Assembly: GCA_030068145.1 (NCBI GenBank)
Contig: JAPJBO010000321.1
Location: forward strand, 163,801-227,800
Length of the DNA stretch: 64,000 nt
Reading direction: 5' to 3'
DNA from: Diplonema papillatum
Lineage: Eukaryota > Euglenozoa > Diplonemea > Diplonemida > Diplonemidae
A model generated the notes under the pieces. It had not been told where the DNA came from and made no database searches. It worked only from the letters and a program-made list of their open reading frames with translations. Of this stretch, positions 4,075 through 64,000 are shown in pieces. Position 1 is the first letter of the stretch, and each line of letters opens with the position of its first letter. The position numbers and the translations under genes are program-made.

Positions 4075-4161
4075 CCGTCAAGCCACGACGCCCGCGCGGA
4101 CGGCGATGCTGCGGGAGTCCGCTTGATGCGATGTGGGGATGTGCATCCCAACCCTGGCCCC
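4072..4161 (+). other. 2A-like module, copy 1
   Basis: Thirty codons from LPSSHDAR to GDVHPNPGP. The C-terminal GDVxxNPGP matches the 2A ribosome-skipping signature, with His in place of the usual Glu. It begins at the first codon after the ORF1 stop. If ORF2 began at ATG 4126, only about 10 residues would precede the skip site, fewer than 2A peptides usually need. Confidence 0.75.
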
Positions 4162-18812: not shown

Positions 18813-18815
18813 CTC
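18810..18815 (+). promoter_or_regulatory. Candidate leaky UGA-CUC stop between gag and recombinase
   Basis: A single in-frame TGA separates the Gag and recombinase frames. The next bases, CTC, give a UGA-CU context like the ORF1/ORF2 stop of LINE B. No ATG occurs near the start of the recombinase frame, so readthrough is the simplest route to its expression. Confidence 0.5.
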
Positions 18816-19745
18816 TCCTCCCGGTACAGCTGGGAGGAAAAAGTGGAGACGTTCGAAGCGGCAGCAACGACCGAAGGGACGGCGGCGCAGCGGGCGTCGA
18901 TGGCAGCGACCGTTGCGAAGTTTGCGGAAGCGACAGACCTGCAGCAGGCACCAGCAGTTTTCAAGTTGAAGGCTTTTGCGGCTGCCATGGTGGACGGTGG
19001 GATGAGCGAAGCGCAGTTGGCGAAGTTCGTCGCACGGGAAAGCGGAAAGCGAGGCCGCCCCAGGAAGGGCAACATGCGGACGACCAGCGTCGAGTCTTAC
19101 CTCAGCGCTTTGGGCCCGAAGATGGGCGTTTCGGCCGCAGAGATGAAGGAGACGAAGCGGGCGCTGCTGAAGCGGCGCCTCGAAAGGCGGGAAATGCCAG
19201 ATCACGCACACCCTCTGACGCTCGAGGAAGCGCGAAGCGTGATGCACGCGGCTGCAGACAAGAGCATGGAAGTAGTAGCTGCGGCGGCTCTTATGTGGGG
19301 CTGCGCCCTGCGGATGGCCGATCTTCTGGAGATCAAGCCAGAGGATGTCACGCTGACAGCGCGAGGGGTGCTACGGATAGCTTGGTGGACCACCAAAGAG
19401 GCGAAATTGAGGCTACGCGAGGTAGAAGTGCTCTACCAGCTGCCGCCCTTGCAACGCGAGAAAGTGAAGAGGTGGATAGGCCTGAAGCAGCCGTTCCAGA
19501 GGGCCACGATCAGGCACCTCCTAGCCCTGGCAAGAAAGTTGGTTCCAGGTTGCGCGGAACACAGCTGGAAACGGGGCGCGTTGCAGCATCTGGCGAAGAG
19601 CGGGGCGCAATGGGACGAGCTCCTGTTGATTGCACGGCACACGTCCATCGCCACTCTGAGGAGATACCTGTGGGGTTGCGTCACACCAGACCACACGAGA
19701 ACGGCAAGGGTATCTGCAAGGCTGCATGTGTCGTTACGCGAGTAA
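18813..19745 (+). CDS. Tyrosine recombinase of the YR retroelement
   Basis: The frame opens directly after the gag UGA, and the protein proper begins around 18843 (VETFEAAATTEG). It would integrate the circular or linear DNA copy. Residues about 15-110 form the core-binding half. The catalytic half shows WGCALRMADLL (first Arg), TTKEAKLRL (Lys in the beta hairpin), HSWKRGAL, then ARHTSIATLRRYL with His and the Tyr nucleophile. In the HxxR box the fourth residue is Lys (HSWK) with Arg at the next position, whereas active enzymes have Arg in that place. This copy may be impaired or may use the adjacent Arg. It ends in TAA at 19743-19745, just before a repeat tract. Confidence 0.85.
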   Translation, partial: LSSRYSWEEKVETFEAAATTEGTAAQRASMAATVAKFAEATDLQQAPAVFKLKAFAAAMVDGGMSEAQLAKFVARESGKRGRPRKGNMRTTSVESYLSALGPKMGVSAAEMKETKRALLKRRLERREMPDHAHPLTLEEARSVMHAAADKSMEVVAAAALMWGCALRMADLLEIKPEDVTLTARGVLRIAWWTTKEAKLRLREVEVLYQLPPLQREKVKRWIGLKQPFQRATIRHLLALARKLVPGCAEHSWKRGALQHLAKSGAQWDELLLIARHTSIATLRRYLWGCVTPDHTRTARVSARLHVSLRE

Positions 19746-23933: not shown

Positions 23934-24764
23934 ATGCCGGCGGTGTGGGTGAGTGACTGCACCCTTGAAGAGGCGCGACGGCTGGCGGCACTGACTCCGA
24001 ATACGTTCGGGGTAATCGCGGGCACAAAGACGGGTGTCTTCGGCATTCGGACGACCCCGGAACACGTTGCCGCCACCGAATCCGCGGTCGGAAAAAAGCT
24101 GTCGAAGCGCCAACTGCGTGGCGACAAATACGTGGTCACCACCGCGTGCGCTTCGGAACACGCGACCGACCTCCTTGCCGCCTGCGCTGCTGCCGGCTGG
24201 AAGGTCGAACAAGCCGGGGCCTTCAAGCGACAAGGTAAGACCGTGTGCATCGTCATCGCCGACACGGGCCCACCTGCACCCGTGTTCTTCCGGCTCGATC
24301 GCGCGTCTATTTCGATAAGGAAATACGACCGCTCCACTGACGCGAGGCAACGGAAGGGATTCTCCACGCAGTGTCAGCGGGAGAAGGTCAAACTCCCACC
24401 CGAGTTCTTCGCTAGCCTCAACGAACGGCCCGAGCCGTCTCCGGGCCAAAAGAGGGGACGCACAGAGGATGAGACAACTGAGTCCCAGGAAAAGCTAGCA
24501 CGGGTGGACGGCAAGGACAACATGGTCACCGACTGCCGGCACACCAGCTGGCAGGAAGCACACTCGAACGCCGAAGCTTTCCTCTGCGTGGTCTGCGCCA
24601 AAGGCATGCAGGTCGGACAAGCCAAGCGGCTTTGCGCGCACGGCCCCTGCCAGGCTGCAATCTGTCACGCATGCTGGACTAAGTCGCGGGCCACGCCGCC
24701 AACTTCATCTCCCTCGCCCGCGCAGGCGACCGCCGACGTCCCCCCCCCGGAGTCACAATGGTGA
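23934..24764 (+). CDS. LINE C ORF1: nucleic-acid-binding protein with C-terminal zinc finger
   Basis: 276 codons. The ATG at 23934 is the first in frame inside the element; the frame upstream belongs to transposon T. The N-terminal half contains the module shared with LINE B ORF1 (AGWKVEQ, RQGKTVCIVIAD, GPPAPV and a YD near its end). A Ser/Glu/Arg-rich linker with KRGR follows. The C-terminus is a Cys/His cluster (CRHTSW, LCVVCAKG, RLCAHGPCQA, CHAC) consistent with a RING/PHD-like zinc fold. It probably binds element RNA. Its last 7 nt overlap the ORF2 start (ATGGTGA). Confidence 0.8.
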   Translation: MPAVWVSDCTLEEARRLAALTPNTFGVIAGTKTGVFGIRTTPEHVAATESAVGKKLSKRQLRGDKYVVTTACASEHATDLLAACAAAGWKVEQAGAFKRQGKTVCIVIADTGPPAPVFFRLDRASISIRKYDRSTDARQRKGFSTQCQREKVKLPPEFFASLNERPEPSPGQKRGRTEDETTESQEKLARVDGKDNMVTDCRHTSWQEAHSNAEAFLCVVCAKGMQVGQAKRLCAHGPCQAAICHACWTKSRATPPTSSPSPAQATADVPPPESQW

Positions 24765-27700
24765 TCCACGCCAACGATTTGTCCCCCCAGCCGACGAGAG
24801 AGTTCTATCTGGCCCTCGTAGCGTACGCGCTTCTCGTGACTCAAGGTATCGAACCCAACCCTGGCCCTCCACCAATTCGAATTGTGACTATAAATGTCAC
24901 GTCCTTGATGAAGAACCTGTACCTCCTCATCTGCATAGCGGCGGACATCATCTGTGTTCAAGAAACGAAGTTGACGAGTGCCGGGCAGAGAAGTATCCGG
25001 ATGGCCCTGAAACAAGCCGGCGCCCTTGATGTATGGCAACCCTTCTTCGGCAGCTGCTGTGTTGGGCGGAAGTGCGGCAACAGCGTCCCATCCCAGGTTA
25101 CAGGAGGTAGTGCAGGAGTCGCGATTTTCGTCAAGAAAGGCTTGCCTGCATGTATCGTCGAGCCTTTTGACGCAGCCGAGCAACGTGCCTACGAATCGGC
25201 CCGCTTCTTGCATGTACGTGTCGCGACAGGTGTAGGTAAAGGAGCCGTACACGTGGTGTCATTGTACGGTCACTGTGGCATTTCCGAAAAACCCGAGCGG
25301 GAAAGGTTGATCGAGGGATCCCTGTGGGGATTGCGCCAGCGCTTGGGTGCTGTGCCCCTTGTCGCCGCCGGCGATTTCAACACGACCCCCCTCGGTTCCC
25401 CGGCGCTCCGATTCGCCTTGCGCAACGGCTGGTCGGACTCTGCCGAGCTGCAAGCTGAAGCCCTGGGAAGTCCTGCAGAGTTTACATGTTACCACGGTCA
25501 GCCGTCACGCATCGACCTTCTTCTCACCAACGAAGTCGCTTCTGCCGCTCTCGGTCGCGTGGAGACTTTCGAAGCCGGCCTCCCTACGCACAAGGCGGTC
25601 CGAGCCACCTTTAATCTTGCAGTATTCCAACAACTGAACCCGGTACTCCGGTACCCCCGGGCAATTCCAAGCACCGGGCTGAGCGGCCTGGACGACCCGA
25701 ATGCCCTCCGGAACGTCTCTGAGAAGTACCGCCTCGGGGACCCTTGCCCCCCCGGGCTCGAAGGTAGCCCCCGGGTGAACTTCCTCTGGCAACGGACTTC
25801 GCGAGCTGCGGAAGAGTACCTCATCCTCAAATCCGGAATCGAAGGCAACCTAACCGGGTACTGTGGCCGTGGCGTACGTCGGGAATTGAACTCTCAGCGA
25901 GTATCGGCGAGGCCGTCCCCTGAAGGTGCGGGAGCCGATACAGCTTCTTTGAAGAGAGCCAGGTGTCTCCTTGGGCGCATACGGGAGTACGCAGCCGCCA
26001 GAGCCAAATGGGAAAGCACAATCGTCTCCCCTGGCCCTTTGCCCTTCCAGCTTGAGGGACAGTGGACGAAAATACGCTCCTTTCGAAGTTTCGTGTTGCA
26101 GCGCACGGATGGGAAGTGTGCTCTGCCACCCGAGCCGCCGTCAGCGAAAATCGGAAGAGGCCTCGCGTTTACCGTCTCAGGACTGTGTCGTGACCTGGCG
26201 CATAGCACGCTAACTTCGAGATACCTGAAGAGCGCGAGGAGTCAGCGGGAGCTTCGCGACCCCCTGGGGAAGGAATCGTTCGCTTGGGTGAAGAAAGACG
26301 CGCCATCGGGGTTATCGTTTGTAACTGGGGCCGATGGGCGGCTCACTGCGAACTTGGCAGAAGTTGACGCGTTGGTGAGGAGGAGTTGGGATCCAGTGCT
26401 CCGCATGTACGCCGAGAAGAGGGAACCCGAGTTTGCCCCTTTCTTCCAGGAGTACAAAGACTTTATCACGCAACACCCATGCAATCTAAATCCGATCACG
26501 GCCGAGCGGCTTCGTCAGGTGGCGAAAAAGAAGAGCGTACAGACGTCTTGCGGTGTAGACGGCTGGCGCATGCGTGAAATCGCCGTTCTGCCGAATGCAA
26601 TCCTGGAAAGCTTTGTCGTGGTGCTCAACGAGGTAGAGGAAACCGGCTTCTGGCCCGACGGAGTCCTGGACGCAATGGTCACCTTAATTCCTAAAGGAGA
26701 AGGGAGTGATCCACTGAAGCTGCGTCCGATTACTGTCTCGAGCGTGGTATACCGACTCTGGGCTAGCGTGCGCCTACAGGATGTCATGCTCTGGCAAGAG
26801 CTATGGATTCACGGGTCGCAACATGGTTTCCGGCACGGCCACTCCTGCGACGACGTGGTCATGGATATCGCCCTATCGATAGAGGAATCACTGACAAACG
26901 GTACACCCCTGTGCGGGGTCGCACTCGACTTTGCCAAGTGCTTTGACCGCGTCCCTCAGGCCCTGGTGCTCGACTTGATGGAGGCGCTTGGGCTTCACGA
27001 GCGTGTGCTGGCACCCTTACGCCACATATACAAGCACCTGAGGCGTCGCTTCCGGTACCCCTTGGGAGTCGGCGAGATGTTCACTGTCACCAACGGAATT
27101 CTCCAGGGCTGCCCGATATCAGTGGTCCTGATCAACGCGCTCCTCTCTGTTCTCTCGAAGGCCTTGGTCAGCCGAGCTCGGGTGAGTCCGAAGTCGTTCG
27201 CCGACGATCTGTACCTGCTGTCGCAACTTGCGAGGCTACTCCAAGAGGGAATTCGAACCACAGAGGTGTTCGACAGCCTGACAGGCTTTGCCCTCAACGA
27301 GGACAAGTCGGTCTCCTTCTCGACGTCCCCAGAGCCTCCTCGCCTCGTGATCGGTCGCAAAATAATTCGATCGAGCAAAATAGTGAAGGTTTTGGGTGTC
27401 CCCCTGGGCACAGAGGGACCCGTTGACAACCGCAGGGCCAACGCCACGGTCGAGGCCGCGGCCAGACTTGAGGCGGCGCCGCTCATGCATCGCACGAAGT
27501 TCCGCATAATGCAGACGATCGCAGCCTCCGCGTATTACGGGGCGGCCTACTGCACGAATACAACAGGTGGCTTCGTCAACAGCTCAACGCTCCGAACGGC
27601 ACTCTCCGCTTGCGTGATCCCTCGATCTAACCGGGCGAAGAGCCCTCTTGCGGTTCTCTCCCTGGTTGCAAAAGCACACCTGTGTGATCCGGCATGCGCC

Positions 27701-29137
27701 TCAGGTTTCAGCTTATTCCGCACGTTCGTGAAACAATACGGGAAAGAGAGGTTTCGGGTGAGGATGGACGCTCTCCTTCGCGTGGGAGCCGACTCGTCTA
27801 TCAAGGGTCCCGTAGGTCTTATGGCTAATCTTCTGCGGGAGATAAGATTCCTACGGGCCACGCAGCACAGCTTCCAGTCCCTGTCTTTCGACGGGACTCC
27901 CGTGTCGCTACTCGGTAAAGAAGCCCCACACCTCTTTCGTGAGGGCCTGCGTCTGCGCGCGTGGCGTTACTTGACCACACAGAGACAAGGATTTGACGGA
28001 ATCGAAGGAGGGGTGGACGTACGTGCCATGAATCGGCTTTGGCTGAACCGCGCGACGGACCACAAATTGAGTTCCGCGATCAGTCGATGTATTGGGGGAG
28101 CGGTGTACTCACGGGAATGGTGCCGCAGGAAGTGGGGTTCGGGGAGCGGCGACTGCGAGTTCTGCGACAGCGGTGCGACGGGGACCCTGTGGCATTACTA
28201 CTGGCAATGTCCGGGCCCAGGTTGTAGATGGAACGAGCTGCGATCCCGGTTTTGCATTGCTGAGGCGATGGTCCGGGACATGCCCCAGTGCTTGTGCATT
28301 AGAGGGATACCCCCCTACGGGACCCCTCCTGACCTCCTGGAGAAGATCCAGAGGCTGATCGGTACGATCTCAATCGAGATGGCGCAGGCGCAGCGGAGCC
28401 TTGCGGCAACACGCCCTTGGGAACTCGCCTCAGGTGCGTCGACGAAATACGACGTACACTTAGCAACGGACAGTCGTAAGTTGCTAACGACCAACATCGG
28501 AACCCGCTTCGCAGCGACGTTGGTCTTCTGGCTGCGGAGTCTATCATGGGTCAGCTCCAACCCTCTCCCGACGACAGGCGTGGAACTCGCGCTTGATTTT
28601 GAGGCATTTACGCGTTCGAAGCTCCCAGGGAGAACCTTCGCCGAGAAGGGGCTGCAAATTGGGTACCTTATGCGAGCTATCAACGACCTGTGCTGCGCCG
28701 ACTCAGGAGTCGCCTCCTTCCCTGGGAAGTGGCGGCAGGGGGTCTGTTCCCTCCGCTGTTTTGGTGCGCCGGCTATGCCGGGTTGTACCCACCGCCCACG
28801 CTTTGCGGCTGGACGGAAGACCGAGTGGATGTTGGGCAAGCTGGAAACAATTTGCGCCCGTAACAGCTGGAACGATGCCGTGCCTGAATATCCGCACGAC
28901 GTACCCTATGTTCAGTGGGAGTTGAGATTCTCTGTCAAGATGCTAGCCGCCGCCATAGGGCGGGCTATTGCCAAAAGGAGGAGAGCCCGCGAAACAACGT
29001 GCCAACACACGCCTGCCAGGCGGTCTCGTCCGCCAGTCAGAACGCCCCCGGCTGCGCCACCATCGGTGCAACAATCATCTTTGACAGGGCCACGGCTCGC
29101 TCCGCGCCCACGGCGCAACGACTTGCGCCCGCCGTAG
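24758..29137 (+). CDS. LINE C ORF2: AP endonuclease and reverse transcriptase with N-terminal 2A
   Basis: 1459 codons from ATG 24758; the start overlaps the ORF1 stop in the motif ATGGTGA, which fits termination-reinitiation. Residues 16-28 are hydrophobic (FYLALVAYALLV), directly followed by TQGIEPNPGP, a canonical 2A signature with the skip between G36 and P37. The APE endonuclease follows (VQETKL, VAAGDFN, RIDLLL, and PTHK in place of SDH). The RT shows LIPKGEG, RPITVSSVVYRLW, ALDFAKCFDRVPQ, QGCPISVVLINALL and FADDLYL (catalytic Asp pair at about 816). The C-terminal part has a CEFC...H...C knuckle and the ELALDFE block. There is no RNase H and none of LINE B's RGG tail. The frame is intact. 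Confidence 0.93.
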   Translation: MVIHANDLSPQPTREFYLALVAYALLVTQGIEPNPGPPPIRIVTINVTSLMKNLYLLICIAADIICVQETKLTSAGQRSIRMALKQAGALDVWQPFFGSCCVGRKCGNSVPSQVTGGSAGVAIFVKKGLPACIVEPFDAAEQRAYESARFLHVRVATGVGKGAVHVVSLYGHCGISEKPERERLIEGSLWGLRQRLGAVPLVAAGDFNTTPLGSPALRFALRNGWSDSAELQAEALGSPAEFTCYHGQPSRIDLLLTNEVASAALGRVETFEAGLPTHKAVRATFNLAVFQQLNPVLRYPRAIPSTGLSGLDDPNALRNVSEKYRLGDPCPPGLEGSPRVNFLWQRTSRAAEEYLILKSGIEGNLTGYCGRGVRRELNSQRVSARPSPEGAGADTASLKRARCLLGRIREYAAARAKWESTIVSPGPLPFQLEGQWTKIRSFRSFVLQRTDGKCALPPEPPSAKIGRGLAFTVSGLCRDLAHSTLTSRYLKSARSQRELRDPLGKESFAWVKKDAPSGLSFVTGADGRLTANLAEVDALVRRSWDPVLRMYAEKREPEFAPFFQEYKDFITQHPCNLNPITAERLRQVAKKKSVQTSCGVDGWRMREIAVLPNAILESFVVVLNEVEETGFWPDGVLDAMVTLIPKGEGSDPLKLRPITVSSVVYRLWASVRLQDVMLWQELWIHGSQHGFRHGHSCDDVVMDIALSIEESLTNGTPLCGVALDFAKCFDRVPQALVLDLMEALGLHERVLAPLRHIYKHLRRRFRYPLGVGEMFTVTNGILQGCPISVVLINALLSVLSKALVSRARVSPKSFADDLYLLSQLARLLQEGIRTTEVFDSLTGFALNEDKSVSFSTSPEPPRLVIGRKIIRSSKIVKVLGVPLGTEGPVDNRRANATVEAAARLEAAPLMHRTKFRIMQTIAASAYYGAAYCTNTTGGFVNSSTLRTALSACVIPRSNRAKSPLAVLSLVAKAHLCDPACASGFSLFRTFVKQYGKERFRVRMDALLRVGADSSIKGPVGLMANLLREIRFLRATQHSFQSLSFDGTPVSLLGKEAPHLFREGLRLRAWRYLTTQRQGFDGIEGGVDVRAMNRLWLNRATDHKLSSAISRCIGGAVYSREWCRRKWGSGSGDCEFCDSGATGTLWHYYWQCPGPGCRWNELRSRFCIAEAMVRDMPQCLCIRGIPPYGTPPDLLEKIQRLIGTISIEMAQAQRSLAATRPWELASGASTKYDVHLATDSRKLLTTNIGTRFAATLVFWLRSLSWVSSNPLPTTGVELALDFEAFTRSKLPGRTFAEKGLQIGYLMRAINDLCCADSGVASFPGKWRQGVCSLRCFGAPAMPGCTHRPRFAAGRKTEWMLGKLETICARNSWNDAVPEYPHDVPYVQWELRFSVKMLAAAIGRAIAKRRRARETTCQHTPARRSRPPVRTPPAAPPSVQQSSLTGPRLAPRPRRNDLRPP
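24845..24868 (+). other. 2A-like ribosome-skipping motif at the ORF2 N-terminus
   Basis: Encodes GIEPNPGP, matching D/G-(V/I)-E-x-N-P-G-P, after a Leu/Ala-rich hydrophobic stretch. N-terminal 2A sequences in APE-type retrotransposons are established (for example in sea urchin and trypanosome elements). Skipping would shed a 36-residue leader. Confidence 0.85.
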
Positions 29138-45915: not shown

Positions 45916-46135
45916 GCACGCGGGACCGGATCCGGACGACCCCGGAAGCGCGTGATCTCGCAGGCTGCGCGACCTACGCAGTATGTGGTATCTACATACC
46001 ACTACGTATGTGTGTATACTACCACGATACCGTGCTGCTGAGGACCTCGGGATGCCCTGTCGTGACCCCCTCCCTGTATGGAATAAGTAACTTTGTCCTA
46101 AAAGAGGAAAAGCGAACAGGTTCATTTGAAATTAT

Positions 46136-47548
46136 TTGGACTTTTCCCGACCCAACAGTTTTCCGAACGGCACCATTTCATACAACCAAATACAGGTCCG
46201 TGGACAAGCCTTACCATTGGAAAGGCGGCTTCCAGCAGTGTCCACTGGCGCTTACCACCCTCAGCATGCTGCTATGCCCTATGCAAATGGAGGTGCCGTT
46301 CACCGCAGCTCAAACTTTGTTGATGATGCTCAGGTTGATAGAATACGAAGGCCCGTTGAACGAGAAAAGTGTGGCCAAGGGCAACAATTGTCTCGACAAC
46401 CTCAGCATCGCGTGCAAGCAGCACGAGCTGCCCATTCACCCAACAGCAATCGTATGCTTCACCAGCAGCGACAGCAGTTGCAACAGGATTACAACCGACT
46501 CAAAAGTGAGCATCAACGGGGACCTGATCCACGCGGAGATGATGTGCAGCTGAATCAAGCTTTCGAAGAAAGCCTGCGTCTGCACCAGCAAGAGCAACAT
46601 CTACAGGTATCCGATTTCTCTCATACCACTCATTCCACAAGAAAGTGTCACAAATGGCAATGCAAGTTCGGACCTGGCGAACTTGTACTGCTATCCGAGT
46701 ACATAGACGGACTGCTAGCAGAAGGCAAAGTCGACGAAGCCAAAGCCCACGTCGACACATGGCGATTCATAGATGACTTCCTCCAATGGGATTGCAAACC
46801 ACCACCTCAATCACTCTATCGTATGGAGTACAAAGAGACGACAGCTGCACACGACGACATCGTCTTCCTTGGAATACGTATACGTATTGAACGACCCGCA
46901 ACACCACACCCACCACACATAAGACTAAGCGTGCACCCCAAAACCTTCGGCACCCGGTTTACACACTACCAGACCACCGCCCCCAAATCACAGGCCAGCG
47001 GCATATTCAAAGGCTCACTGATAAGGGCAAGCCGACAAACCAACCACTGGCAGGACCTTCGCGTCGAGATCCAGCGCAACGTATACGCGATGCTCGAACG
47101 GGGGCACCACCCCAGAGTTCTCTACCCCCCGTGGCAAGCTTGGCTGACGGAGGAGTTCCGAACCCTACCACGACTACACAGCCAGTTAAAACCGTTCTTA
47201 GGGTACAGCATTGCGCGTTTCAAGAACGGCAAACCGCGCATGGAAGAGCCAGAATACGCCGGAAGACACCAACCCCTTAACTTCAAACCAGCCGAACTGC
47301 CTGTAACACCGGACGATCGCGACTCAATGACAGACAGCCACTCCTCAACTACCCACGAACACGAGGAAAGACCAACAACCCTCCTTTCACAACCACAACC
47401 ACAGTTCACCTTGAAACACCGAGTAGCCAACCTAGCAGCAACCATCACTTTAGCGGCAGCAATCGCAGCCGCCGGAGCGAGGACCATGTCGAAACTCACG
47501 AGATACACCACCACAAACTCCTGTTTCTGCAAGCGGCCCTCAACTTGA
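46136..47548 (+). pseudogene. Penelope-like reverse transcriptase relic fused to the start of a USP domain
   Basis: 470 open codons without a clear start (TTG at 46136). The first 150 are Gln/His-rich and unrecognised. From about 46680 the sequence reads WRFIDDFLQW (an RT motif C of the R-x-IDD type), DDIVFLGIRI, LSVHPKTFGTRFTHYQT, SGIFKGSLIRASR and a segment ending in HHPRVLYPPW. This matches the C-terminal half of Penelope-like RTs (IDD, FLxxxI, YRKxxxTxxYxxxxS, K-x-x-x-x-x-L-x-R-A). RT motifs A and B are missing and no GIY-YIG domain was found. The frame then runs through an Ala-rich stretch into TTNSCF, the catalytic Cys box of a USP domain, where a one-base deletion ends it. Confidence 0.6.
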
Positions 47549-47875
47549 TCGCCTCCACACACAACAAGTAGTCACATACCACGACTGCCCAACACACACG
47601 AAAGGCGAATGCACGGCAGCTGTCCACGCTTGGGTGACAGGAAAACGGACGCAAGCAACACTGCTGCACGTTTTCGCCAACATCGACGGACCGTTTGGCA
47701 ACGGGAAGCATGCGACCTGGGGAAGTGCTAAGAGCCATCACCACAGCACTTCTTGACGAAAACTTCGCACACCAAGCTTGCCAGCAACATCGCCCTGACG
47801 CTTTCAACGGTCTACGACATACAACGACGACGACAACTACTTGTAAAAACTGCAACCACTACCGACACACCCCCA
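47505..47875 (+). pseudogene. Broken USP (ubiquitin-specific protease) domain
   Basis: Homologous to the USP domain at 61.1-61.5 kb, in three successive frames: TTNSCF and then, after a 1-nt deletion, FLQAALNLIAST; next CPTHTKGECTAAVHAWVTG and NIDGPFGNGKH; then GEVLRAITTALLDENFAHQA and FNGLRH. The intact copy reads TTNSCYLQAALNLFAV, CGTHEKGELTAEVHKWVTG, RGPFGDGRQHDVGEVLR. The zinc-ribbon and His-box parts are missing. Divergence between the copies is high, so this is not a recent copy of the LINE at 56-64 kb. Confidence 0.8.
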
Positions 47876-53968: not shown

Positions 53969-55881
53969 GCTGTGAGTCAACTTTTCCGAAGGGACTGGTC
54001 TTGAGAGGTGTTGCTGTGAGTCAACTTTTCCGAAGGAACTGGTCTTGAGAGGCCTTGCTGTGAGTCAACTTTTCCGAAGGGACTGGTCTTGAGAGGCCTT
54101 GCTGTGAGTCAACTTTTCCGAAGGGACTGGTCTTGAGAGGCCTTGCTGTGAGTCAACTTTTCCGAAGGGACTGGTCTTGAGAGGCCTTGCTGTGAGTCAA
54201 CTTTTCCGAAGGGACTGGTCTTGAGAGGCGTTGCTGTGAGTCAACTTTTCCGAAGGGACTGGTCTTGAGAGGCCTTGCTGTGAGTCAACTTTTCCGAAGG
54301 GACTGGTCTTGAGAGGCCTTGCTGTGAGTCAACTTTTCCGAAGGGACTGGTCTTGAGAGGCCTTGCTGTGAGTCAACTTTTCCGAAGGGACTGGTCTTGA
54401 GAGGCCTTGCTGTGAGTCAACTTTTCCGAAGGGACTGGTCTTGAGAGGCCTTGCTGTGAGTCAACTTTTCCGAAGGGACTGGTCTTGAGAGGCCTTGCTG
54501 TGAGTCAACTTTTCCGAAGGGACTGGTCTTGAGAGGCCTTGCTGTGAGTCAACTTTTCCGAAGGGACTGGTCTTGAGAGGCCTTGCTGTGAGTCAACTTT
54601 TCCGAAGGGACTGGTCTTGAGAGGCGTTGCTGTGAGTCAACTTTTCCGAAGGGACTGGTCTTGAGAGGCGTTGCTGTGCGAAGGGACTGGTCTTGAGAGG
54701 CCTTGCTGTGAGTCAACTTTTCCGAAGGGACTGGTCTTGAGAGGCGTTGCTGTGCGAAGGGACTGGTCTTGAGAGGCCTTGCTGTGAGTCAACTTTTCCG
54801 AAGGGACTGGTCTTGAGAGGCCTTGCTGTGAGTCAACTTTTGCGAAGGGACTGGTCTTGAGAGGCGTTGCTGTGAGTCAACTTTTCCGAAGGGACTGGTC
54901 TTGAGAGGCCTTGCTGTGAGTCAACTTTTCCGAAGGGACTGGTCTTGAGAGGCCTTGCTGTGAGTGAACTTTTCCGAAGGGACTGGTCTTGAGAGGCGTT
55001 GCTGTGCGAAGGGACTGGTCTTGAGAGGCCTTGCTGTGAGTCAACTTTTCGAAGGGACTGGTCTTGAGAGGCCGTGCTGTGAGTCAACTTTTCCGAAGGG
55101 ACTGGTCTTGAGAGGCCTTGCTGTGAGTCAACTTTTCCGAAGGGACTGGTCTTGAGAGGCCTTGCTGTGAGTCAACTTTTCCGAAGGGACTGGTCTTGAG
55201 AGGCCTTGCTGTGAGTCAACTTTTCCGAAGGGACTGGTCTTGAGAGGCCTTGCTGTGAGTCAACTTTTCCGAAGGGACTGGTCTTGAGAGGCGTTGCTGT
55301 GCGAAGGGACTGGTCTTGAGAGGCCTTGCTGTGAGTCAACTTTTCCGAAGGGACTGGTCTTGAGAGGCGTTGCTGTGCGAAGGGACTGGTCTTGAGAGGC
55401 CTTGCTGTGAGTCAACTTTTCCGAAGGGACTGGTCTTGAGAGGCCTTGCTGTGAGTCAACTTTTCCGAAGGGACTGGTCTTGAGAGGCCTTGCTGTGAGT
55501 CAACTTTTCCGAAGGGACTGGTCTTGAGAGGCCTTGCTGTGAGTCAACTTTTCCGAAGGGACTGGTCTTGAGAGGCCTTGCTGTGAGTCAACTTTTCCGA
55601 AGGGACTGGTCTTGAGAGGCGTTGCTGTGCGAAGGGACTGGTCTTGAGAGGCGTTGCTGTGAGTCAACTTTTCCGAAGGGACTGGTCTTGAGAGGCCGTG
55701 CTGTGAGTCAACTTTTCCGAAGGGACTGGTCTTGAGAGGCGTTGCTGTGAGTCAACTTTTCCGAAGGGACTGGTCTTGAGAGGCCTTGCTGTGAGTGAAC
55801 TTTTCCGAAGGGACTGGTCTTGAGAGGCGTTGCTGTGCGAAGGGACTGGTCTTGAGAGGCCTTGCTGTGAGTCAACTTTTC
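53969..55881 (+). repeat. 44-bp satellite array, about 43-45 units
   Basis: Highly homogeneous 44-bp units containing GTCAACTTTTCCGAAGGGAC. About eight units lack the same 12 bp (AGTCAACTTTTC), giving 32-bp variants dispersed among full units, evidence of unequal exchange or conversion. Confidence 0.95.
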
Positions 55882-56215
55882 CCCGCAAACCCGCCCGCCC
55901 GCAAACCCGCAAACCCGCACTCGGTGGCCCTGCGGGCCCCCTCGTGCAGTTGATGGATTCTTAGTGCTTCGATGTGGGCCTTCTTGTCCAGGCTCGGCCT
56001 CTTGTGTGAAGAGGCCGACTCGAAAGAAAACAGGATTCAGCACACACAACGCAAACAGGAACTAGAAGAAGAAAAGAAATTCACAAGATTGTTCGGGTCG
56101 GAGTTGTGCTTGAAAAATCTGGTGTTCGAGAGTTCGTGTGGAAGCAGTCAAGGTATGTGAAGTTACGAGTCAGCGATAAGGTTCTGACAGAGCTATGGGT
56201 ACATATTTTTGTTGA

Positions 56216-59200
56216 TATTTTGACCGATGCATCCAACGAAACCGTCACAGGAATTCGAAGCTCCTACGAACGACGTGCCCGTCGGCCTTCAAGGCCCAGT
56301 ACATACGGGACGCGGTGGAAGCTCCCGACGTCGAGGGAGCCATAGCAGCCACGACGGAGTTCGTTAACCTGCTCCTGTCGGGGAGGGGCCCTGAGCTGGC
56401 GAGAGGCGACATGGCGGGGGCTACCCTCATCGCGCTAAGGAAGAAGGAAAAAGACGTCAGACCGATCGCGGTAGGGGAAGTGTGGAGGAGGCTCGCATCA
56501 AAAAGCGCGTGCGCCGCCGTTAAGTCCGAGGCCGAGGAATACCTGGTCAAAGACAACCAAGTGGGCGTAGCGGTGCCCGGAGGCCTGGAGGCAGCCGTCC
56601 AGGTTGTCAGAAGCTACGCGTTCCGCAACGAAGGCAAGTCAAACAAAGTCATGATCAAAGTGGACCTCAAAAACGCGTTTAATTCCGTCCACAGATCGGC
56701 CATCCTGAGGGAGACGAAGTCAGCGTTCCCCGAACTCCTGCCGTGGGTGAAGTGGTGCTACGCAGGGAAGTCCAACTTGTACATGAGGGGAAAAATCATG
56801 TCATCGGAAGAGGGGGCTCAACAAGGCGACCCCATGGGTCCTCTACTCTTCTCCCTAGCGATTGCCCCCATTGTCAGAAAGGTCCGAGCGGAAACAGGGT
56901 TAGACATGAGTCTGTTTTACCTGGACGACGGGTTCCTGGCGGGGAACAAGGACGAAGTGATGCGAGCACTCGAGTTGTTCGAGAGGGAGTGCGCCAAGAT
57001 TGGCCTCGAGGTAAACCGCGGAAAGTGCGAGCTTATCCTCCTGGATGCATCCCTAGACCGCAGGCCCGAGGCATGGGGGTTCCCGAAGGACACAGTAGTC
57101 TTGGTGGGCCCGAACTTTAGCTTCCTGGGAGCACCAATAGGAAACGACGCATTCTGCGCAGAGTTCTTGAAGGCAAAGGTCGACAAGCTCCGGGAGACCT
57201 TCAGGATGCTCAAGCTGATGGATGACAAGCAAGCGGCATACCTGCTGCTGCGATACTGCACCTCATACGGAAAGATGGTGTACTATATGCGGGCCGTCCC
57301 GGGAAGGAAGGTCAGACAAGAACTCCGCCGGTTCGACGACATGGTCCACGACGCAATGCAAGCGATAAGCAGCAGCAGATTGTCAGCTCAGGCTTGGTCG
57401 CAGGCCAAGCTGGCAATTCGGTATGGCGGGTTGGGGCTCAGGAGCACCGCAGAACACCATGCGGCAGCGACGCTGGCGTCGATCTCAGCTTGGGAGGAGC
57501 TGGCGAAGAAGTTGGACCACCGATATCGGGTCGAGGCGAGGGCTTGGAGGAAAGCGGCCAAGTCATTTAACGAGGCAGTCGGCAGCGACGATGTTAGCCC
57601 GGAGGGCCCGAGAGGAGTCCTCGTCCAGCGCCTTCTGTCAGCCGCTATTGAGGAGAGGCAGCTGAGGGAACTCAGGAAGGACGTGGATGACAACCCAAGG
57701 GAGAAAGCACGCCTCCTGACGATTACCCTCCCGCATGCCGGCTCGTGGCTGACGGCCGTCCCCTACACAGGAAAGGACATGGAGCCTCAAGAGTTCGAAG
57801 TAGCAGTCAAGATGTGGCTGGGCTCGGCGGTATTTGAGGCGGGCCAGACATGCGAGGTGTGCAAAAAAGACGGCCTTGACAGGCTCGGCCACCATGCGTT
57901 GAGCTGCCGCCACGGTGGGGACTGGACAGCAAAGCATCATGCGGTGAGGGACGAGCTGTACATGGCGTGCTTGGACGCGGCCCTGGAGCCGAAGAAGGAG
58001 GAGAAGGGCACAGTGGGCACAAAGCCAGGGATAATCCCGGGGGACGTTTCCCTCCCGCGAGGAGTGAACGAGCGGCGCCCCAGATCCATCGACGTCACAA
58101 TCGTCAATCCCCAAAGCGCATCCATCTGCCAGGAAGCGGCAATCTCACAAGGGTACGCGGCCAGGAAGGGGGAGGCGACCAAGTACACAAAGTACGCGGA
58201 GGAGCTGCAGAAGAACAACCGGCGCTTCACGGCGTTTGCCCTCGAGTCCATGGGCGGCTTCGGAGCAGAGGCCCGGAGCTTCCTCTGGAGAGTGGCTGCC
58301 GAAGCAGCTGACCGGGCCAGGAGAAACAAAGCAGAGGTTTTCCGCGACTACGCAGAAAGGATCTCCATACAGGTGGTCAAAGGGGCAGCCAGGGCAGCGA
58401 TCCGCAGAGGGACAATAACAGACAGGAACTCCATCGGAGTGGAACCCGGAAACATCAGGGAAAAGCCAGTGGAGTACGTTTCGCTGGATGTGGAGATTTG
58501 GCAAGAGGAGTGTGAGGCCCTGGGCAAGGCGGTTCAGCAGAAAGCCAGGGAAGACGCGGAGAGAAAGACGAGTAGGTCTGGTCAGGGGACAGGACGGACA
58601 CTGCCCCCGATTTGGCCGCCGCCAGATCCAGCATCACCGACACCAACACCGCGATCGACAGGCATGGATGAAGAAGGGTCGAAGGCCACACATGGTACAA
58701 AGGTCCATGACGCCCCGGCAGACGCCTCAGCAGTACGCGACGCACCGGAATGGGTGCACCCCAACCGCACAGAGAGAGAGATGCCGCCCGATCCTCCCCT
58801 CATGTCCGAACTCTCGCTGTCGGGGGACACACACATGAGGGGGCAGAGTCAGGACGCCTCGCCAAGATCGACAGCAGCCCCCGCATCACCGGGAGAAGGA
58901 CTCGCCGACAGCACTGCTCAGGCTGAGCTCGCCCCCTCCCTCGGTACAGGGGCCCCAACAACGGATGACTCTCACATGAGGGGGCAGGGCCAAGGCGCCC
59001 CGGCCGAGGCATTAACAGCCCCTGCAGAAACGGAGGGGGGCCACGCAGGTGCCACAGAGAGACCGAAGGCTCCGCTGGCTTCACCACCCAGGGCCGAGCC
59101 TCCTGTGGGAGACACGCACCAGGGGACACAAGGTCAGGAAGCCACCACGGTCGGGAAGGAAGGCCCCACAGCGCCGAGAGGCCACACCCTCCAAGGGAGG

Positions 59201-62200
59201 CCAAGCAGCCAGGGGCATGCCGACCCCCCACCCGTTCCGATGGCAACAGATGAGACCGAGGGCGAGTCTTCCGGGGAAGGACAGGCAGTCCAGCGAAGGG
59301 GTGACCCCGGAAGATACCTCAAGAAGCTTCAGCAGATCAAAAGCATGCCGATGCGGAGAAGAAGAGCGGAGAGGTGGGCAAAAAGCCGGGAAAGCACAGC
59401 ACAGCGGGGGAGCGACGCCCTCCCAACTCCATCAGATCCGCCCCGGAGCTTCATTCAGGAGGAAAAGCGCACAATGTCGGTGACGCAGTACTTGCAAGCG
59501 GTGTCGCCGGCGAGAGCGGCCGGGGGCCCCGTCGCCCCCCCCGCCTCCCCGACAGCTCCAGCTAAGGCCGCTCCTCCGACAGCCGCCCAGGCAACAGCGA
59601 TACCACCAAAGGATGCGGCGGGAGAGCAAATGCCACCGGCTGCCCGTCAGGGGCCCGGGAGTGACACAGCAGCGGGAGAGCAGCCGTCGATGCAGAAATC
59701 GACAGCAGACAACGTCCCAGGCACGCCTGGAGGCGATCGAAGCCCCCGGCCGCTCGGGCAGACAGGGCGGACTCCCAGCCCAGAGGCACGGTCCGAAAAC
59801 GAGGGGCGGGGCAAAGTGGGCCGGCCAAGGCTAGAGGACGCACATCTGCAAACCCGGGTAGGGGTCGGGAAAGCAGTCGAGGGATGGTCGGCAGAAGAGG
59901 TACTGAAAGCTATGCAAGCAGAGGTCTTCGAGACACCGGACGACATCCCGCCCCCCCGGCCTTCTCTGTCACACACTCCAGACACTGAGCGACACACTCC
60001 AGTCTCTGACGGACTCACCGGCGCCAACAACACACCACACATGGCAGCAGGGGACACCCGATCAGCGACCCTCCCACCAACAGGCGCCCGAACAGCGGAA
60101 GGCTCGGGTCCGCATGTCTCTCTTAAAGCCGGGGAGCCAGACGGTGCAGCAACACTCCACCAATTCAATCGGCCATCGGATACGGCTGCCGACAGAGTTG
60201 CGCGACACCTGGAAGCCAGAGGCACAGGCTATTCCTCCAGCTCCCAGGACACAGTGACACTGATGCAAGCCCCGTTCGAAGGGGAAGGGCGTGACTGCTC
60301 CTCCAGCTTGAAGCCCGTGCCCAAGGTCTCCCCAACACCCCATCCTCCAAGCGCCGCTAAACAACCACACATGGCAGCTGGAAGGGGAATGTTGATGGGA
60401 GCGACACCCGAGGCGGAAAAGACAGGGACAGAAGCGCAAGTGGGAGGCGAAGCACCACAGCAAAAGACGGGAGCAGTCGCAGGAGGAGGGAGAACGGGCC
60501 GATCGAAAACAGAGGGCACAACAGAAGAGAGGCAGATTCGTTCATACACGCGCGATTCGACAGGACTGCCACACGACCCCCAAGGCCAGTCATGGTCGCC
60601 AGAACCGGACGAAGGCATACGGCACCCAGGGACCGGAGGGTCGGAAAAAGGAGGCACCCCCAGCAGCTCCCAGGAAACTGTGGACATCATGCGAACCCTG
60701 TTGGAGGTGGAACGGCCAGAATGCGTCCCCGTCCAAGAACATGAAACCGTGACCCCCCCAGCACACTCCCTCCCCAGCGCCGCAAATCAACCACACATGG
60801 CAGCTGAGAAGGGGATGGCAAAGGGGGAAGCGGCTGCAACCGAGGAGGCAGAAGCAGACAATCCACGGACGAGCAGGAAGTCCCCGCAAAGCACGACAGG
60901 CGAGACAGCAAGCGAAAATCCCAGAACCCCGGGTGCCGGCTTGGCTTCACACAAAGCGAGCAACATTGCCGACCTCCCAGGAACGGGGCGGAACCGCGTG
61001 AGGAAAGAATCCCTGGCCGCTCTCGACTCTGAGCTGCCAAGCTCGGAGGAAGTTGGAGACCCTCACCGGCTCGGAGATAAGACGATCGCAAAACCGGGTG
61101 CAAAGGGCCGATCAGGCATCAAGACCACGAACTCGTGCTACCTGCAGGCGGCGTTGAACCTTTTTGCGGTCACCAACATGGCGCAGCAGATAGCCATCTT
61201 CCAGCAGTGCGGCACACACGAGAAGGGAGAACTAACTGCAGAGGTCCACAAGTGGGTGACAGGCGGCCGTTCAGAGGCGGTGCTGCGGTCTGTACTGGCG
61301 AAAGTCAGAGGCCCATTCGGTGACGGTCGACAACACGACGTGGGAGAGGTCCTGCGGACAGTGGCCTCAGCGATCCTAGAAGAGAACACGGCTCACCGAG
61401 CCTGCAGCTCCAATTGGGCGGACCGAATTGCAGGCCTGCGTCACAGGTACTCGGTCGAAGTTAAGTGTGGGAAGTGCCAGTATGGCCACATGGCTCAAGA
61501 GGACCTGGACATAACCATCCTCCCCGTAGGAGCTGGCTCGGTGCAGAGGTGTCTCGACGAAGCTTTCGCGTGGTCCTCGGCAGGGGCGGACTACAGATGC
61601 GAGAACTGCGGGGTCAGGGGGCAGACCCAGACTAAGCCCTCCTTTAGCCAGGCCGGCACAGCGGTGATCATTCAGCTACAAAGGGCGCGCCCTTTCGACT
61701 GCACAGACAGGAGAGCAGTGCCCACAGATACCACAATAACTTTGCCAGGCCTGGGCAGACAGCTGGAACTCACAGCGGTGGTATCGCACACAGGGGGGAA
61801 CAACGCGGGCCATTACAGGGTGCACGCGTACAACGAACACGCCGAGAGGGAGCAGAGGTGGACGATTCTTGATGGTGAGCATGCCAGTTTTTCGTCCGTG
61901 CCGAGGTTCGAGGGGACGGACACCTTTCTTTTAGTATACCAGCCGGCCCCTGAGCAGCCCGAGACCTCGAAGGACACAGAGAGGAGAGATGGCACGCCGT
62001 CGACGGTGGATGGGCCCGAGCCGGCTGGCAACAGGCCCGGAGTCAAGGGGCCAAGCCCGGAGGAACTCCTCGCGAGGTTCGTGGAGGCAACGAGGAGAAG
62101 GGTGGCAGACAGAGCCTCACAAGGCAGGAGGCACGAAGCCGAGGCAGCCGGGGACATCGAAAGGGATTCACTGAGCTCGGAGTCGGGCGAGCCCAACTCC

Positions 62201-63232
62201 CTGTCGACAGGTCCACGGATAGCCACAAAGTCGAGGGGAACTGGATCGGAGGAGAAGGCGGACGGGCAGGCCTTTCATGAGTCCCCCCCTGATACCCCCC
62301 GGGCCCCTGTTCCGGACACCGAGCCTGAAGAAGCTGCGGCAGGGCTGGACACCTCAGAGCCTCAGAGTACGGCAGCAAGGGGGTTGACCCCAGCTGAGGG
62401 AGTGCCCGACATAGACGCAGAAGGAGGAGCAGTTTTCAACAGGCGGAGGAAAAGGAGCTCGGACCGGGGAGACACTGCTGAAGGAGAAGGCACACTCCCA
62501 AGTCGAATCCGGGGGGTACCGAAGAGAGCAAGAGGACCGGAGGGCACGTGGGAAGTCATCGACCTTACAGAGGATGAAGAAGTAGCTCCCCCCAGCACGA
62601 CCGAGGAGATGGACATAGACAGAGAAGAAGGCTTGGCCTTCCGCCGTGCAAAGGCTCTGGAAGAAGAGGAAGCCCTCACCGCCCACGCAGTCGCAAAACT
62701 CGCCAAAGACCCCCATAGACACCCGGATGAGTGGCGCAGAGTCAAAGTCCCAGAGTCAGTTGGTACCCGGTTCCCAAGGAGTCTCCACACGCAGCCAGCA
62801 GAGGGCAACAGAGGAGGGGAGAGCGGATGGGCAGCCCTGAACTGGCTGGCGGATGAGTGGCAGAGAGACAGGGCGAACTTTATCGACTTGTTCCGAATCC
62901 AGACGTGGCTCTACACAACAGCCCGGGAGCACGACATCCAAGCCCTGGCAGAAAAACCGCAGGAGGAGGGGTGGTTCACGGTCAACACCCTCCGAAAAGC
63001 AGCGCGAGATTTGCTAGGTCTCGAGCTCACGGATGGAGCGGAGCTCGAGTACCAGGAAGGCACCGCCGCCATAGTAGGGCCGAAGAACCCGAGGGCCCAG
63101 TGGGTGTTGGCCAGGTTTGTCGGGGGCTCGGCCCACATCGTCAGCACGGATCGTCCACAGAGAGTGCGCAAGGTCAATTGGCCAGTGCTGACGAGGTCAG
63201 CTCATGTCCTGTGCGTGAGGGACCAAAAATGA
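56216..63232 (+). CDS. USP-LINE polyprotein: RT, restriction-like endonuclease, USP domain, SIM (5' truncated)
   Basis: 2338 open codons. The frame opens at 56216, but LINE homology starts at about 56276 (CPSAFKAQYIRDA), so the N-terminus is lost. Numbered from 56216: RT about 35-330 with KKEKDVRPIAVGEVWRRL, KVDLKNAFNSVHR, QQGDPMGPLLFSLAI and YLDDG (235-239, YLDD in place of YADD). A CCHC knuckle starts at about 546. The restriction-like (PD-D/ExK type) endonuclease has PGDVSLP, RSIDVTIVNP (D626) and KYTKY (about 656). Residues about 760-1620 are disordered, with repeated HMRGQ and HMAA motifs. The USP domain is about 1627-1910. A SUMO-interacting motif VIDLTEDEE is at 2114, and a folded C-terminal domain at about 2180-2335. 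Only the 5' end looks damaged. It would nick DNA and prime reverse transcription. Confidence 0.9.
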   Translation, partial: YFDRCIQRNRHRNSKLLRTTCPSAFKAQYIRDAVEAPDVEGAIAATTEFVNLLLSGRGPELARGDMAGATLIALRKKEKDVRPIAVGEVWRRLASKSACAAVKSEAEEYLVKDNQVGVAVPGGLEAAVQVVRSYAFRNEGKSNKVMIKVDLKNAFNSVHRSAILRETKSAFPELLPWVKWCYAGKSNLYMRGKIMSSEEGAQQGDPMGPLLFSLAIAPIVRKVRAETGLDMSLFYLDDGFLAGNKDEVMRALELFERECAKIGLEVNRGKCELILLDASLDRRPEAWGFPKDTVVLVGPNFSFLGAPIGNDAFCAEFLKAKVDKLRETFRMLKLMDDKQAAYLLLRYCTSYGKMVYYMRAVPGRKVRQELRRFDDMVHDAMQAISSSRLSAQAWSQAKLAIRYGGLGLRSTAEHHAAATLASISAWEELAKKLDHRYRVEARAWRKAAKSFNEAVGSDDVSPEGPRGVLVQRLLSAAIEERQLRELRKDVDDNPREKARLLTITLPHAGSWLTAVPYTGKDMEPQEFEVAVKMWLGSAVFEAGQTCEVCKKDGLDRLGHHALSCRHGGDWTAKHHAVRDELYMACLDAALEPKKEEKGTVGTKPGIIPGDVSLPRGVNERRPRSIDVTIVNPQSASICQEAAISQGYAARKGEATKYTKYAEELQKNNRRFTAFALESMGGFGAEARSFLWRVAAEAADRARRNKAEVFRDYAERISIQVVKGAARAAIRRGTITDRNSIGVEPGNIREKPVEYVSLDVEIWQEECEALGKAVQQKAREDAERKTSRSGQGTGRTLPPIWPPPDPASPTPTPRSTGMDEEGSKATHGTKVHDAPADASAVRDAPEWVHPNRTEREMPPDPPLMSELSLSGDTHMRGQSQDASPRSTAAPASPGEGLADSTAQAELAPSLGTGAPTTDDSHMRGQGQGAPAEALTAPAETEGGHAGATERPKAPLASPPRAEPPVGDTHQGTQGQEATTVGKEGPTAPRGHTLQGRPSSQGHADPPPVPMATDETEGESSGEGQAVQRRGDPGRYLKKLQQIKSMPMRRRRAERWAKSRESTAQRGSDALPTPSDPPRSFIQEEKRTMSVTQYLQAVSPARAAGGPVAPPASPTAPAKAAPPTAAQATAIPPKDAAGEQMPPAARQGPGSDTAAGEQPSMQKSTADNVPGTPGGDRSPRPLGQTGRTPSPEARSENEGRGKVGRPRLEDAHLQTRVGVGKAVEGWSAEEVLKAMQAEVFETPDDIPPPRPSLSHTPDTERHTPVSDGLTGANNTPHMAAGDTRSATLPPTGARTAEGSGPHVSLKAGEPDGAATLHQFNRPSDTAADRVARHLEARGTGYSSSSQDTVTLMQAPFEGEGRDCSSSLKPVPKVSPTPHPPSAAKQPHMAAGRGMLMGATPEAEKTGTEAQVGGEAPQQKTGAVAGGGRTGRSKTEGTTEERQIRSYTRDSTGLPHDPQGQSWSPEPDEGIRHPGTGGSEKGGTPSSSQETVDIMRTLLEVERPECVPVQEHETVTPPAHSLPSAANQPHMAAEKGMAKGEAAATEEAEADNPRTSRKSPQSTTGETASENPRTPGAGLASHKASNIADLPGTGRNRVRKESLAALDSELPSSEEVGDPHRLGDKTIAKPGAKGRSGIKTTNSCYLQAALNLFAVTNMAQQIAIFQQCGTHEKGELTAEVHKWVTGGRSEAVLRSVLAKVRGPFGDGRQHDVGEVLRTVASAILEENTAHRACSSNWADRIAGLRHRYSVEVKCGKCQYGHMAQEDLDITILPVGAGSVQRCLDEAFAWSSAGADYRCENCGVRGQTQTKPSFSQAGTAVIIQLQRARPFDCTDRRAVPTDTTITLPGLGRQLELTAVVSHTGGNNAGHYRVHAYNEHAEREQRWTILDGEHASFSSVPRFEGTDTFLLVYQPAPEQPETSKDTERRDGTPSTVDGPEPAGNRPGVKGPSPEELLARFVEATRRRVADRASQGRRHEAEAAGDIERDSLSSESGEPNSLSTGPRIATKSRGTGSEEKADGQAFHESPPDTPRAPVPDTEPEEAAAGLDTSEPQSTAARGLTPAEGVPDIDAEGGAVFNRRRKRSSDRGDTAEGEGTLPSRIRGVPKRARGPEGTWEVIDLTEDEEVAPPSTTEEMDIDREEGLAFRRAKALEEEEALTAHAVAKLAKDPHRHPDEWRRVKVPESVGTRFPRSLHTQPAEGNRGGESGWAALNWLADEWQRDRANFIDLFRIQTWLYTTAREHDIQALAEKPQEEGWFTVNTLRKAARDLLGLELTDGAELEYQEGTAAIVGPKNPRAQWVLARFVGGSAHIVSTDRPQRVRKVNWPVLTRSAHVLCVRDQK
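61097..61945 (+). other. USP (peptidase C19) domain with intact catalytic triad
   Basis: Cys box GIKTTNSCYLQAALNLF with catalytic Cys codon at 61136. Zinc ribbon CGKC-type pairs at 61466/61475 (KCGKC) and 61598/61607 (CENC). His box VVSHTGGNNAGHYRVHAY with His at 61811, then TILDGEHAS with the third-triad Asp at 61871, and a TFLLVYQP ending. Spacing and order match USP deubiquitinases, though it is compact at about 280 residues. It predicts cleavage of ubiquitin or a ubiquitin-like protein. Confidence 0.9.
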
Positions 63233-63951
63233 GCCCACCAACCCCCACTGCTGGCATGCTCCCCCCCAGGCCCCCAACTACAACCCAAGAGTCATTTTCC
63301 CCCCCACCCATCACTTTCCTTTTCGGTATGTTTTGTTTTTCCTCCTCCCCTTGGCACCCCGTTACTCCCTCCCATGGTCCGTTCTACTCCCACTCTCTCT
63401 CCCTCACTCTCTCACTCTCTCTCTTGCACCCACTCTCGCCATCTCACTCACACACTATTTTGTTTGTGTCCCTTCTGGAAAGGGGAGAAAAAAAGAGGGC
63501 TTCAATTCCCTCTCTTTATTTTTTGGTTGTCCCTCCTCTTCCTCCTCCTCCTCGCTCCCCTATTTTTCCGTTTCTTTTTATGCACGGAATGCCCTTCCTC
63601 TTATTTATATATCTCTCTTTTCCAGCCAAGGTATGCCGTGTTTTTCAGAATGTTTACCATTTCCCCCCCCACCACCTTCAAAACGCGAATACACAAACAG
63701 GCCAATACGCAAGGGAAAAAAAAAAAAGAGAACACAAAAATGCAAGGTCATGTGGGCGGCTCGCCACCACAGGACGAAAAGGGCAGGTGGTACGCCACCA
63801 AAACCAAAACAGCCCCCAGTAAAATAGAGTAAGGCGGACATGCTTGTGTATTCGTGGTGGAATTTTCCTCTTTTCCCGTTTGGTTTCCGCGCCCATGAAA
63901 ATGGAACCCCCATGAGCGCGTTACGGGGTCCCAAGTGCCGGGTGGAGCGGC

Positions 63952-63953
<2 letters not shown>
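63233..63953 (+). other. 3' UTR of the USP-LINE
   Basis: C/T-rich (CTCTCTCCCTCACTCTCTC-type) with no credible ORF: frames here overlap each other and are low complexity. Confidence 0.6.

Positions 63954-64000
<47 letters not shown>
63954..64000 (+). other. Poly(A) tail of the USP-LINE, cut by window end
   Basis: At least 47 consecutive A, directly after the 3' UTR. It is the only long poly(A) among the LINE ends in this window. Confidence 0.85.

Follow-up and report, generated by a model that had tools for sequence, protein, structure and literature searches.

Does a retrotransposon of the marine flagellate Diplonema papillatum encode a deubiquitinase, and if it does, what would the element gain from it? 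The question arises from a stop-free frame at positions 56216–63232 of the window, by which we mean the whole 64,000-nt stretch of contig JAPJBO010000321.1 that was analyzed; the LINE with its parts, and a decayed second element, lie on its + strand. The frame encodes 2338 residues plus a stop, and the original prediction took it for the polyprotein of a LINE with a restriction-like endonuclease (RLE), followed in the same frame by a complete USP domain.

The LINE copy itself occupies 56277–64000. Its left boundary is defined by contig C2721, which matches the window DNA at 99.7% identity across 1180 bp, beginning at 56277, and we therefore regard the copy as 5′ truncated; such truncation is common among LINE copies. 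The original prediction began the element at 56216. The uninterrupted frame stands but this start does not, because 56216 falls in open flanking sequence, which accounts for the first ∼20 residues. At the other end, the stop codon is followed by a 3′ untranslated region (63233–63953) and a poly(A) run (63954–64000) that reaches the contig edge, where the copy is cut short.

Near the start of the frame is a reverse transcriptase (RT) domain, RVT_1, at 56438–57118 (residues 75–301; Pfam E 2.5e-21, above cut-off), with the catalytic FYLDD at 56915–56929; its DD is kept in 127 of 127 rows of the RT-RLE alignment. When profile A1 was compared with the PDB, it matched an R2 retrotransposon protein (E 4.4e-9), a match for which the RT part alone accounts; only R2 proteins were hit, and no USP at E 0.01. 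A CCHC zinc finger, visible in the sequence and in conserved columns of the 129-row alignment, lies ahead of the endonuclease (57851–57907), and the PD-(D/E)xK endonuclease core, recognized by its motif columns, spans 58013–58285. Across the 129 aligned RT-RLE regions, D626 is an aspartate in all 125 rows with a residue at that position and K656 a lysine in 123 of 123, while the acidic residue that opens the PD motif is kept less strictly (D in 87 of 126 rows; the window has its D one column later). No profile and no structure match names the RLE, and its assignment is motif-based. Taken with the truncation and the poly(A), these matches and motif columns bear out the identification of an RLE-type LINE.

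The remainder of the frame consists of a first linker (58433–61090), the predicted USP deubiquitinase domain (61103–61948), a second linker (61958–62755) and a C-terminal domain (62765–63229). Close proteins carry the name of Diplonema papillatum itself, and one of these, P0001, serves as the reference for conservation: it is 58.9% identical to the window in RT-RLE and 69.5% in the USP, compared with 29.4% in the poorly conserved first linker (28.2% when shuffled). The second linker is partly conserved (51.7% over 211 aligned residues; 27.9% shuffled). The C-terminal domain was seen in the window and P0001 only and is weakly Josephin-like; aligned to the Josephin motif, both proteins have other residues at the places of the catalytic Cys and His. 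An active Josephin is not supported, since these two residues are apparently absent.

The USP assignment is based on a Pfam UCH match to residues 1637–1908 (E 9.7e-8, above cut-off), in the same frame as RVT_1, and on a predicted structure with a USP fold, whose nearest folds include USP1 on FANCD2, although USPs score alike. The triad C1641, H1866 and D1886 was placed by alignment. The Cys1641 codon is at 61136–61138, within the Cys box TTNSCYLQAALN, the first nine letters of which are common to P0001–P0003, and the stretch from His1866 (61811–61813) to Asp1886 (61871–61873) contains a GHY box and an LDG that are both also found in P0001. Two CxxC zinc pairs, at residues 1751–1754 and 1795–1798 (61466–61609), were likewise aligned. 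The domain is divergent, with a Cys box that reads TTNSCY where the usual form is GNTCY, and a best PDB sequence match of E 0.02. A Pfam search and a structure prediction were among the checks originally proposed, and both uphold a USP in the LINE frame; by alignment the domain is complete, with Cys, His and Asp and both zinc pairs; a chance resemblance is rejected by the Pfam match together with the fold comparison.

The same arrangement recurs in the Diplonema genome (271 Mb in 2910 contigs). P0001, a gene model of 2324 aa with 38 member sequences, known as protein only, has RT, RLE, linker, USP and C-terminal region ordered as in the window; the Diplonema relatives bear the NCBI label “SLACS 132 kDa protein”. 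At the DNA level, the copy behind P0003 (L108, contig C197) has an open frame of 1778 aa in which RT, RLE and linker are followed by the N-terminal half of the USP, after which low-complexity DNA interrupts it. The window element is therefore not a one-off, and P0001 and L108 together reject an assembly artefact for Diplonema. Copies that stop behind the RLE would have refuted the original prediction. Elsewhere, many RLE LINEs are of this form (of the 129 RT-tree rows, 82 lack both USP and OTU and stop at most 80 residues past the RLE match), but in Diplonema the order is repeated.

The Ka/Ks comparison across copies that had been suggested gives, for the N-terminal half of the USP between the window and the P0003 copy, pS 0.485, pN 0.151 and omega 0.22 (N versus S, Fisher p 8e-11). 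The LINE USP is under purifying selection, as judged from half the domain in one pair of copies. For RT-RLE of the same pair, pS is 0.751 and saturated, and the USP half looks younger than the RT-RLE split (Fisher p 1e-6 for the pS difference). P0001 and P0003 are likewise 92% identical in the USP half and 58.6% in RT-RLE. From these two differences, the USP module seems to move between LINE families.

Other Diplonema sequences show further arrangements. The gene models P0006 and P0101 have a 2OG-Fe(II) oxygenase (AlkB-type) domain upstream of the LINE, which may be a mere neighbour because the upstream sequence differs in contig C2721. L052, on contig C2716, represents another Diplonema RLE-LINE family (about 26–37% identical, with two match sites on the contig), and the window USP type was unmatched within the 10 kb examined there.

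More widely, two RT-RLE searches yielded 109 and 29 proteins from about 8,000 scored candidates each. A USP, whole or in part, was found with a local profile in 23 of 136 proteins including the window, always behind the RLE, and precomputed Pfam UCH matches are present in 7 of the 109 and 15 of the 29 (two in common); these frequencies are biased because only about 8,000 candidates were scored, because candidate lengths were bounded by query length and because the second search favoured long proteins. All but two of the 23 carriers are also Pfam matches, the exceptions, P0002 and P0003, being partial. The Cys-box cysteine is kept in 23 of 23, and GHY or GHF is present in all 16 that reach the His box (GHF in P0128 and P0130, read from the sequence tails); the other seven end or skip ahead of it. 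Since no USP match was obtained in 113 of the 136 RLE LINE proteins, the function must be dispensable or met otherwise.

USPs occur in separate RT clades, requiring 11 changes, 10 of them forced by starred branches, in a quick 129-row tree with long branches. The richest clade (USPs in 16 of 30 rows) includes P0122 of the barnacle Amphibalanus amphitrite. In the NCBI gene models P0126 and P0127, a LINE looks to have been fused to a host gene; single NCBI models therefore need caution, and P0122 could be a fusion too, though its order is repeated on other contigs by P0110, P0111 and P0121. Among additional features, a 2A-like motif was seen in six retrieved proteins, four with a USP (P0058, P0061, P0116 and P0128). 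P0008, an RLE LINE of 2040 aa with 35 members, has its USP followed by two domains of the RNase H1 N-terminal type (Cauli_VI, E 1.5e-27). The USP-less relatives P0038, P0048, P0050, P0059, P0065, P0118 and P0120 have in common a short C-terminal motif like DPELARYL.

The USPs of these LINEs are not of one kind. Eight of the 23 were compared singly with the PDB, and the types of the others, five of them partial domains, were assigned by similarity to these eight. P0122 is closest to USP2 (3e-109; next USP15, 1e-79), P0128 to USP30 (4.5e-48; next 2.5e-15) and P0130 to USP35 (9e-48; next 5e-25), and P0061 is USP8/15-like (3e-56, with USP2 at 5e-50). For the other four (P0040, P0116, P0117 and the window), the PDB comparison gave no clear paralogue; we take the Cys boxes of P0040 and P0117 to be USP10-like in look, and that of P0116 to be USP37-like.

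In a USP tree built from 16 domains that are complete or almost so, the types are well supported and cut across the RT tree. Conversely, in an RT tree of 21 proteins, a single clade is rejected for each of five USP types (p-AU 2e-5 to 4e-66), the types having been set from USP sequences, but after the larger RT tree was known. The pair P0122 and P0123 illustrates the conflict, with RT-RLE regions that are 66–67% identical, yet USP2- and USP35-type domains. Because the USP types conflict with the RT tree, repeated capture, exchange between LINEs, or both are required. The link to SLACS comes from source names only. We consider it fairly probable that the region behind the RLE-LINE endonuclease is an exchangeable deubiquitinase slot, filled by at least six kinds of USP, several of them nearest to different host paralogues (USP2, USP30, USP35 and USP8/15 types), which were captured repeatedly and reshuffled between lineages, and that Diplonema Penelope-like elements acquired theirs likewise. 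If this is true, such a slot would betoken an enduring conflict of retroelements with ubiquitin-based restriction by the host.

The Penelope-like elements were found by a UCH search of the Diplonema genome, which gave at least 149 matches, host USPs included. Of these, 95 form three equal-score runs of 11, 43 and 41. Four of the 95 (L009–L012, on contigs C1606, C1849, C205 and C785) have uninterrupted frames, 1562 or 1585 residues long, that contain the RT motifs RFIDDLL and FLGIRIR. GIY-YIG precedes the RT motifs, and the USP lies after the RT, followed by an end that is C2H2-like by eye. For two of the frames examined with Pfam, GIY-YIG has E values of 1.1e-4 (which passes the cut-off) and 1.5e-4 (which narrowly misses it), and UCH of 5.7e-23 and 1.5e-20; RT was unreported in these two. 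We take L009–L012 to be Penelope-like on the basis of motifs. Penelope-like elements with an N-terminal GIY-YIG exist, and L009–L012 resemble them in having GIY-YIG before the RT and differ in the USP and C2H2-like end after it. Comparison of the two Penelope-like families gives omega values of 0.127 for the USP (dS 2.4, rough), 0.058 for the RT and 0.64 for the linker, and this USP is under purifying selection as well.

A 43-row USP tree that includes Diplonema USPs joins the window and P0001 (100/100), and places these with P0008 and the Penelope-like USPs weakly (85/85, long branches). The tree thus does not show that the window domain was donated by a USP of the Diplonema host. One row entered as a host USP, host_L017, falls among the Penelope-like copies and is probably itself such a copy.

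Some relatives contain a second type of deconjugase. Across 390 RT residues, P0004 and the window are 99.7% identical. Ahead of this RT, P0004 shows zinc-finger-like motifs and an OTU-like domain (E 3e-4, slightly short of the Pfam cut-off), and from this sequence we infer that a full member of the window's family bears both OTU and USP; the P0004 copy stops inside the RT, and no single copy was seen with both. OTU is clear in P0132 (Pfam 1.8e-12) and weak in P0131 (3e-3), and OTU-like motifs seen by eye in P0007 and P0010 are unsupported by Pfam. Further domains in relatives are a PHD in P0061 (just under cut-off) and P0114, and weak C2H2 fingers in some.

Among known elements, Dualen and RandI LINEs carry an OTU-type protease and are not known to carry a USP. 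They share an encoded RLE with the window element but encode an APE too (PMC4640811). Some Utopia and NeSL elements are similar in being RLE LINEs with a single protein that combines zinc fingers, RT and RLE with a deconjugase-type cysteine protease; theirs is Ulp1-like and N-terminal to the RT, whereas that of the window is a USP (C19) and C-terminal to the RLE (PMC4640811). SLACS/CRE elements of trypanosomatids are also euglenozoan RLE LINEs with poly(A) and zinc fingers, and the words ubiquitin and protease occur zero times in the main text of the paper that describes them (PMC12278014). According to the Ginger paper, Ginger1 bears OTU or Ulp1, some Helitrons bear OTU, and a Trichomonas transposase is accompanied by Peptidase C19, which is the USP family; these too are transposon proteins with a deubiquitinase-type domain, but of DNA transposons rather than LINEs (PMC2836005). 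The suggestion that a USP in a LINE was undescribed holds to the extent that we found none among the open-access papers covered by our searches; the Trichomonas case shows that a USP-type peptidase in a transposon had already been noted. The Diplonema genome paper names SLACS and LINE-1 type models, and the USP is unmentioned in the passages covered (PMC10161547). Deconjugating proteases of transposons (Ulp1, OTU) have thus been noted before, and USP LINEs bear on what they are used for. They also call for care in annotation, the barnacle LINE protein P0122 being labelled “Ubiquitin carboxyl-terminal hydrolase 2”.

As to what the USP is for, we lean slightly toward self-deubiquitination. The window holds a 5′-truncated RLE LINE with a USP behind its endonuclease; USPs of different origin are found in other RLE LINEs and, separately, in Penelope-like elements, show purifying selection where the DNA allowed a comparison, and in LINEs were exchanged between lineages or captured repeatedly. 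The domain would travel in cis with the RT and endonuclease and strip host-added ubiquitin off the element's own protein or RNP, which would thereby survive until target-primed reverse transcription. Enzymatic activity, ubiquitin as substrate and self-protection as purpose are what we infer here. The presence of different USP catalytic domains in one LINE slot, with catalytic residues kept, is natural evidence that ubiquitin removal as such may benefit a retrotransposon. Precedents for the restriction are that human L1 ORF2p is ubiquitinated by TRIM41 and then degraded (PMC10716122), and that polyubiquitylation and degradation of mouse L1 ORF1p are stimulated by TEX19.1 with UBR2 (PMC5570191). 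In the open literature searched, ubiquitin-based host restriction of LINEs appears in mammals only, and with USP-bearing LINEs it can be tested directly whether hosts other than mammals use such restriction.

Both functions originally put forward, protection of the complex and editing of ubiquitin on chromatin, fit the data. The latter, in which the USP would have chromatin or repair factors of the target site as its substrates (H2A/H2B, PCNA or FANCD2 type), opening chromatin or steering repair during integration, is possible but in our view unlikely. The source paralogues have unlike host substrates, a fact more suggestive of a generic activity than of a single target on chromatin; because the paralogues differ, it seems to be the general activity that is selected, and self-protection therefore fits better. 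What speaks for a chromatin role is the fusion to an endonuclease that works at the target, the PHD or weak C2H2 fingers of some relatives, the presence of USP1 on FANCD2 among the nearest, similarly scoring folds, and the DNA-repair role proposed for transposon Ulp1/OTU in the Ginger paper (PMC2836005). Action on another ubiquitin-like modifier (SUMO, ISG15-like or Nedd8) is improbable, given that USP2, USP30 and USP35, the proteins nearest to the relatives' domains, are deubiquitinases; it draws some plausibility from the divergence of the window USP and from the Ulp1-like proteases of some nematode RLE LINEs (PMC4640811).

We give very little credence to a polyprotein-processing protease, in favor of which stand the long LINE ORFs (about 2300 residues) with their linkers, as USPs cut after the C-terminus of ubiquitin and a ubiquitin domain is missing from the Pfam matches in the ORF. 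It is just as doubtful that the domains are functionless passengers, that is, host exons picked up by chance or fusions in gene models or assemblies. The USP2, USP30 and USP35 domains are host-like, P0122 is simply named USP2, and P0126 and P0127 have a fused appearance, but coding lengths close to those of the contigs allow introns little space (P0130 has 1475 aa on a 4664-bp contig), the catalytic residues are retained, both selection comparisons indicate purifying selection, and the Diplonema genome holds many UCH copies. For Diplonema, this explanation is largely refuted.

The window contains a second, decayed element at 46130–47859. Its ORF (46130–47545) has, by eye, the RT-like motifs RFIDDFL and VFLGIRI and runs into a frame-broken USP (47524–47859) of the LINE type, to which P0001 aligns in tblastn with 60% identity over 55 aa (E 6e-21). 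Pfam found no family near cut-off in the window ORF at 46136. From its motifs, this is perhaps an element of the Penelope-like kind that carries the LINE-type USP. LINE ORFs of the other type, both long and with Exo_endo_phos and RVT_1, are located at 4123–9585 and 24758–29137, and yet another element, at 18108–19508, matches at 40% residues 82–508 of P0006, which look by eye like a tyrosine recombinase. Upstream of the LINE copy, at a distance of a few hundred bases, a 44-bp tandem array of 45 copies occupies 53969–55882.
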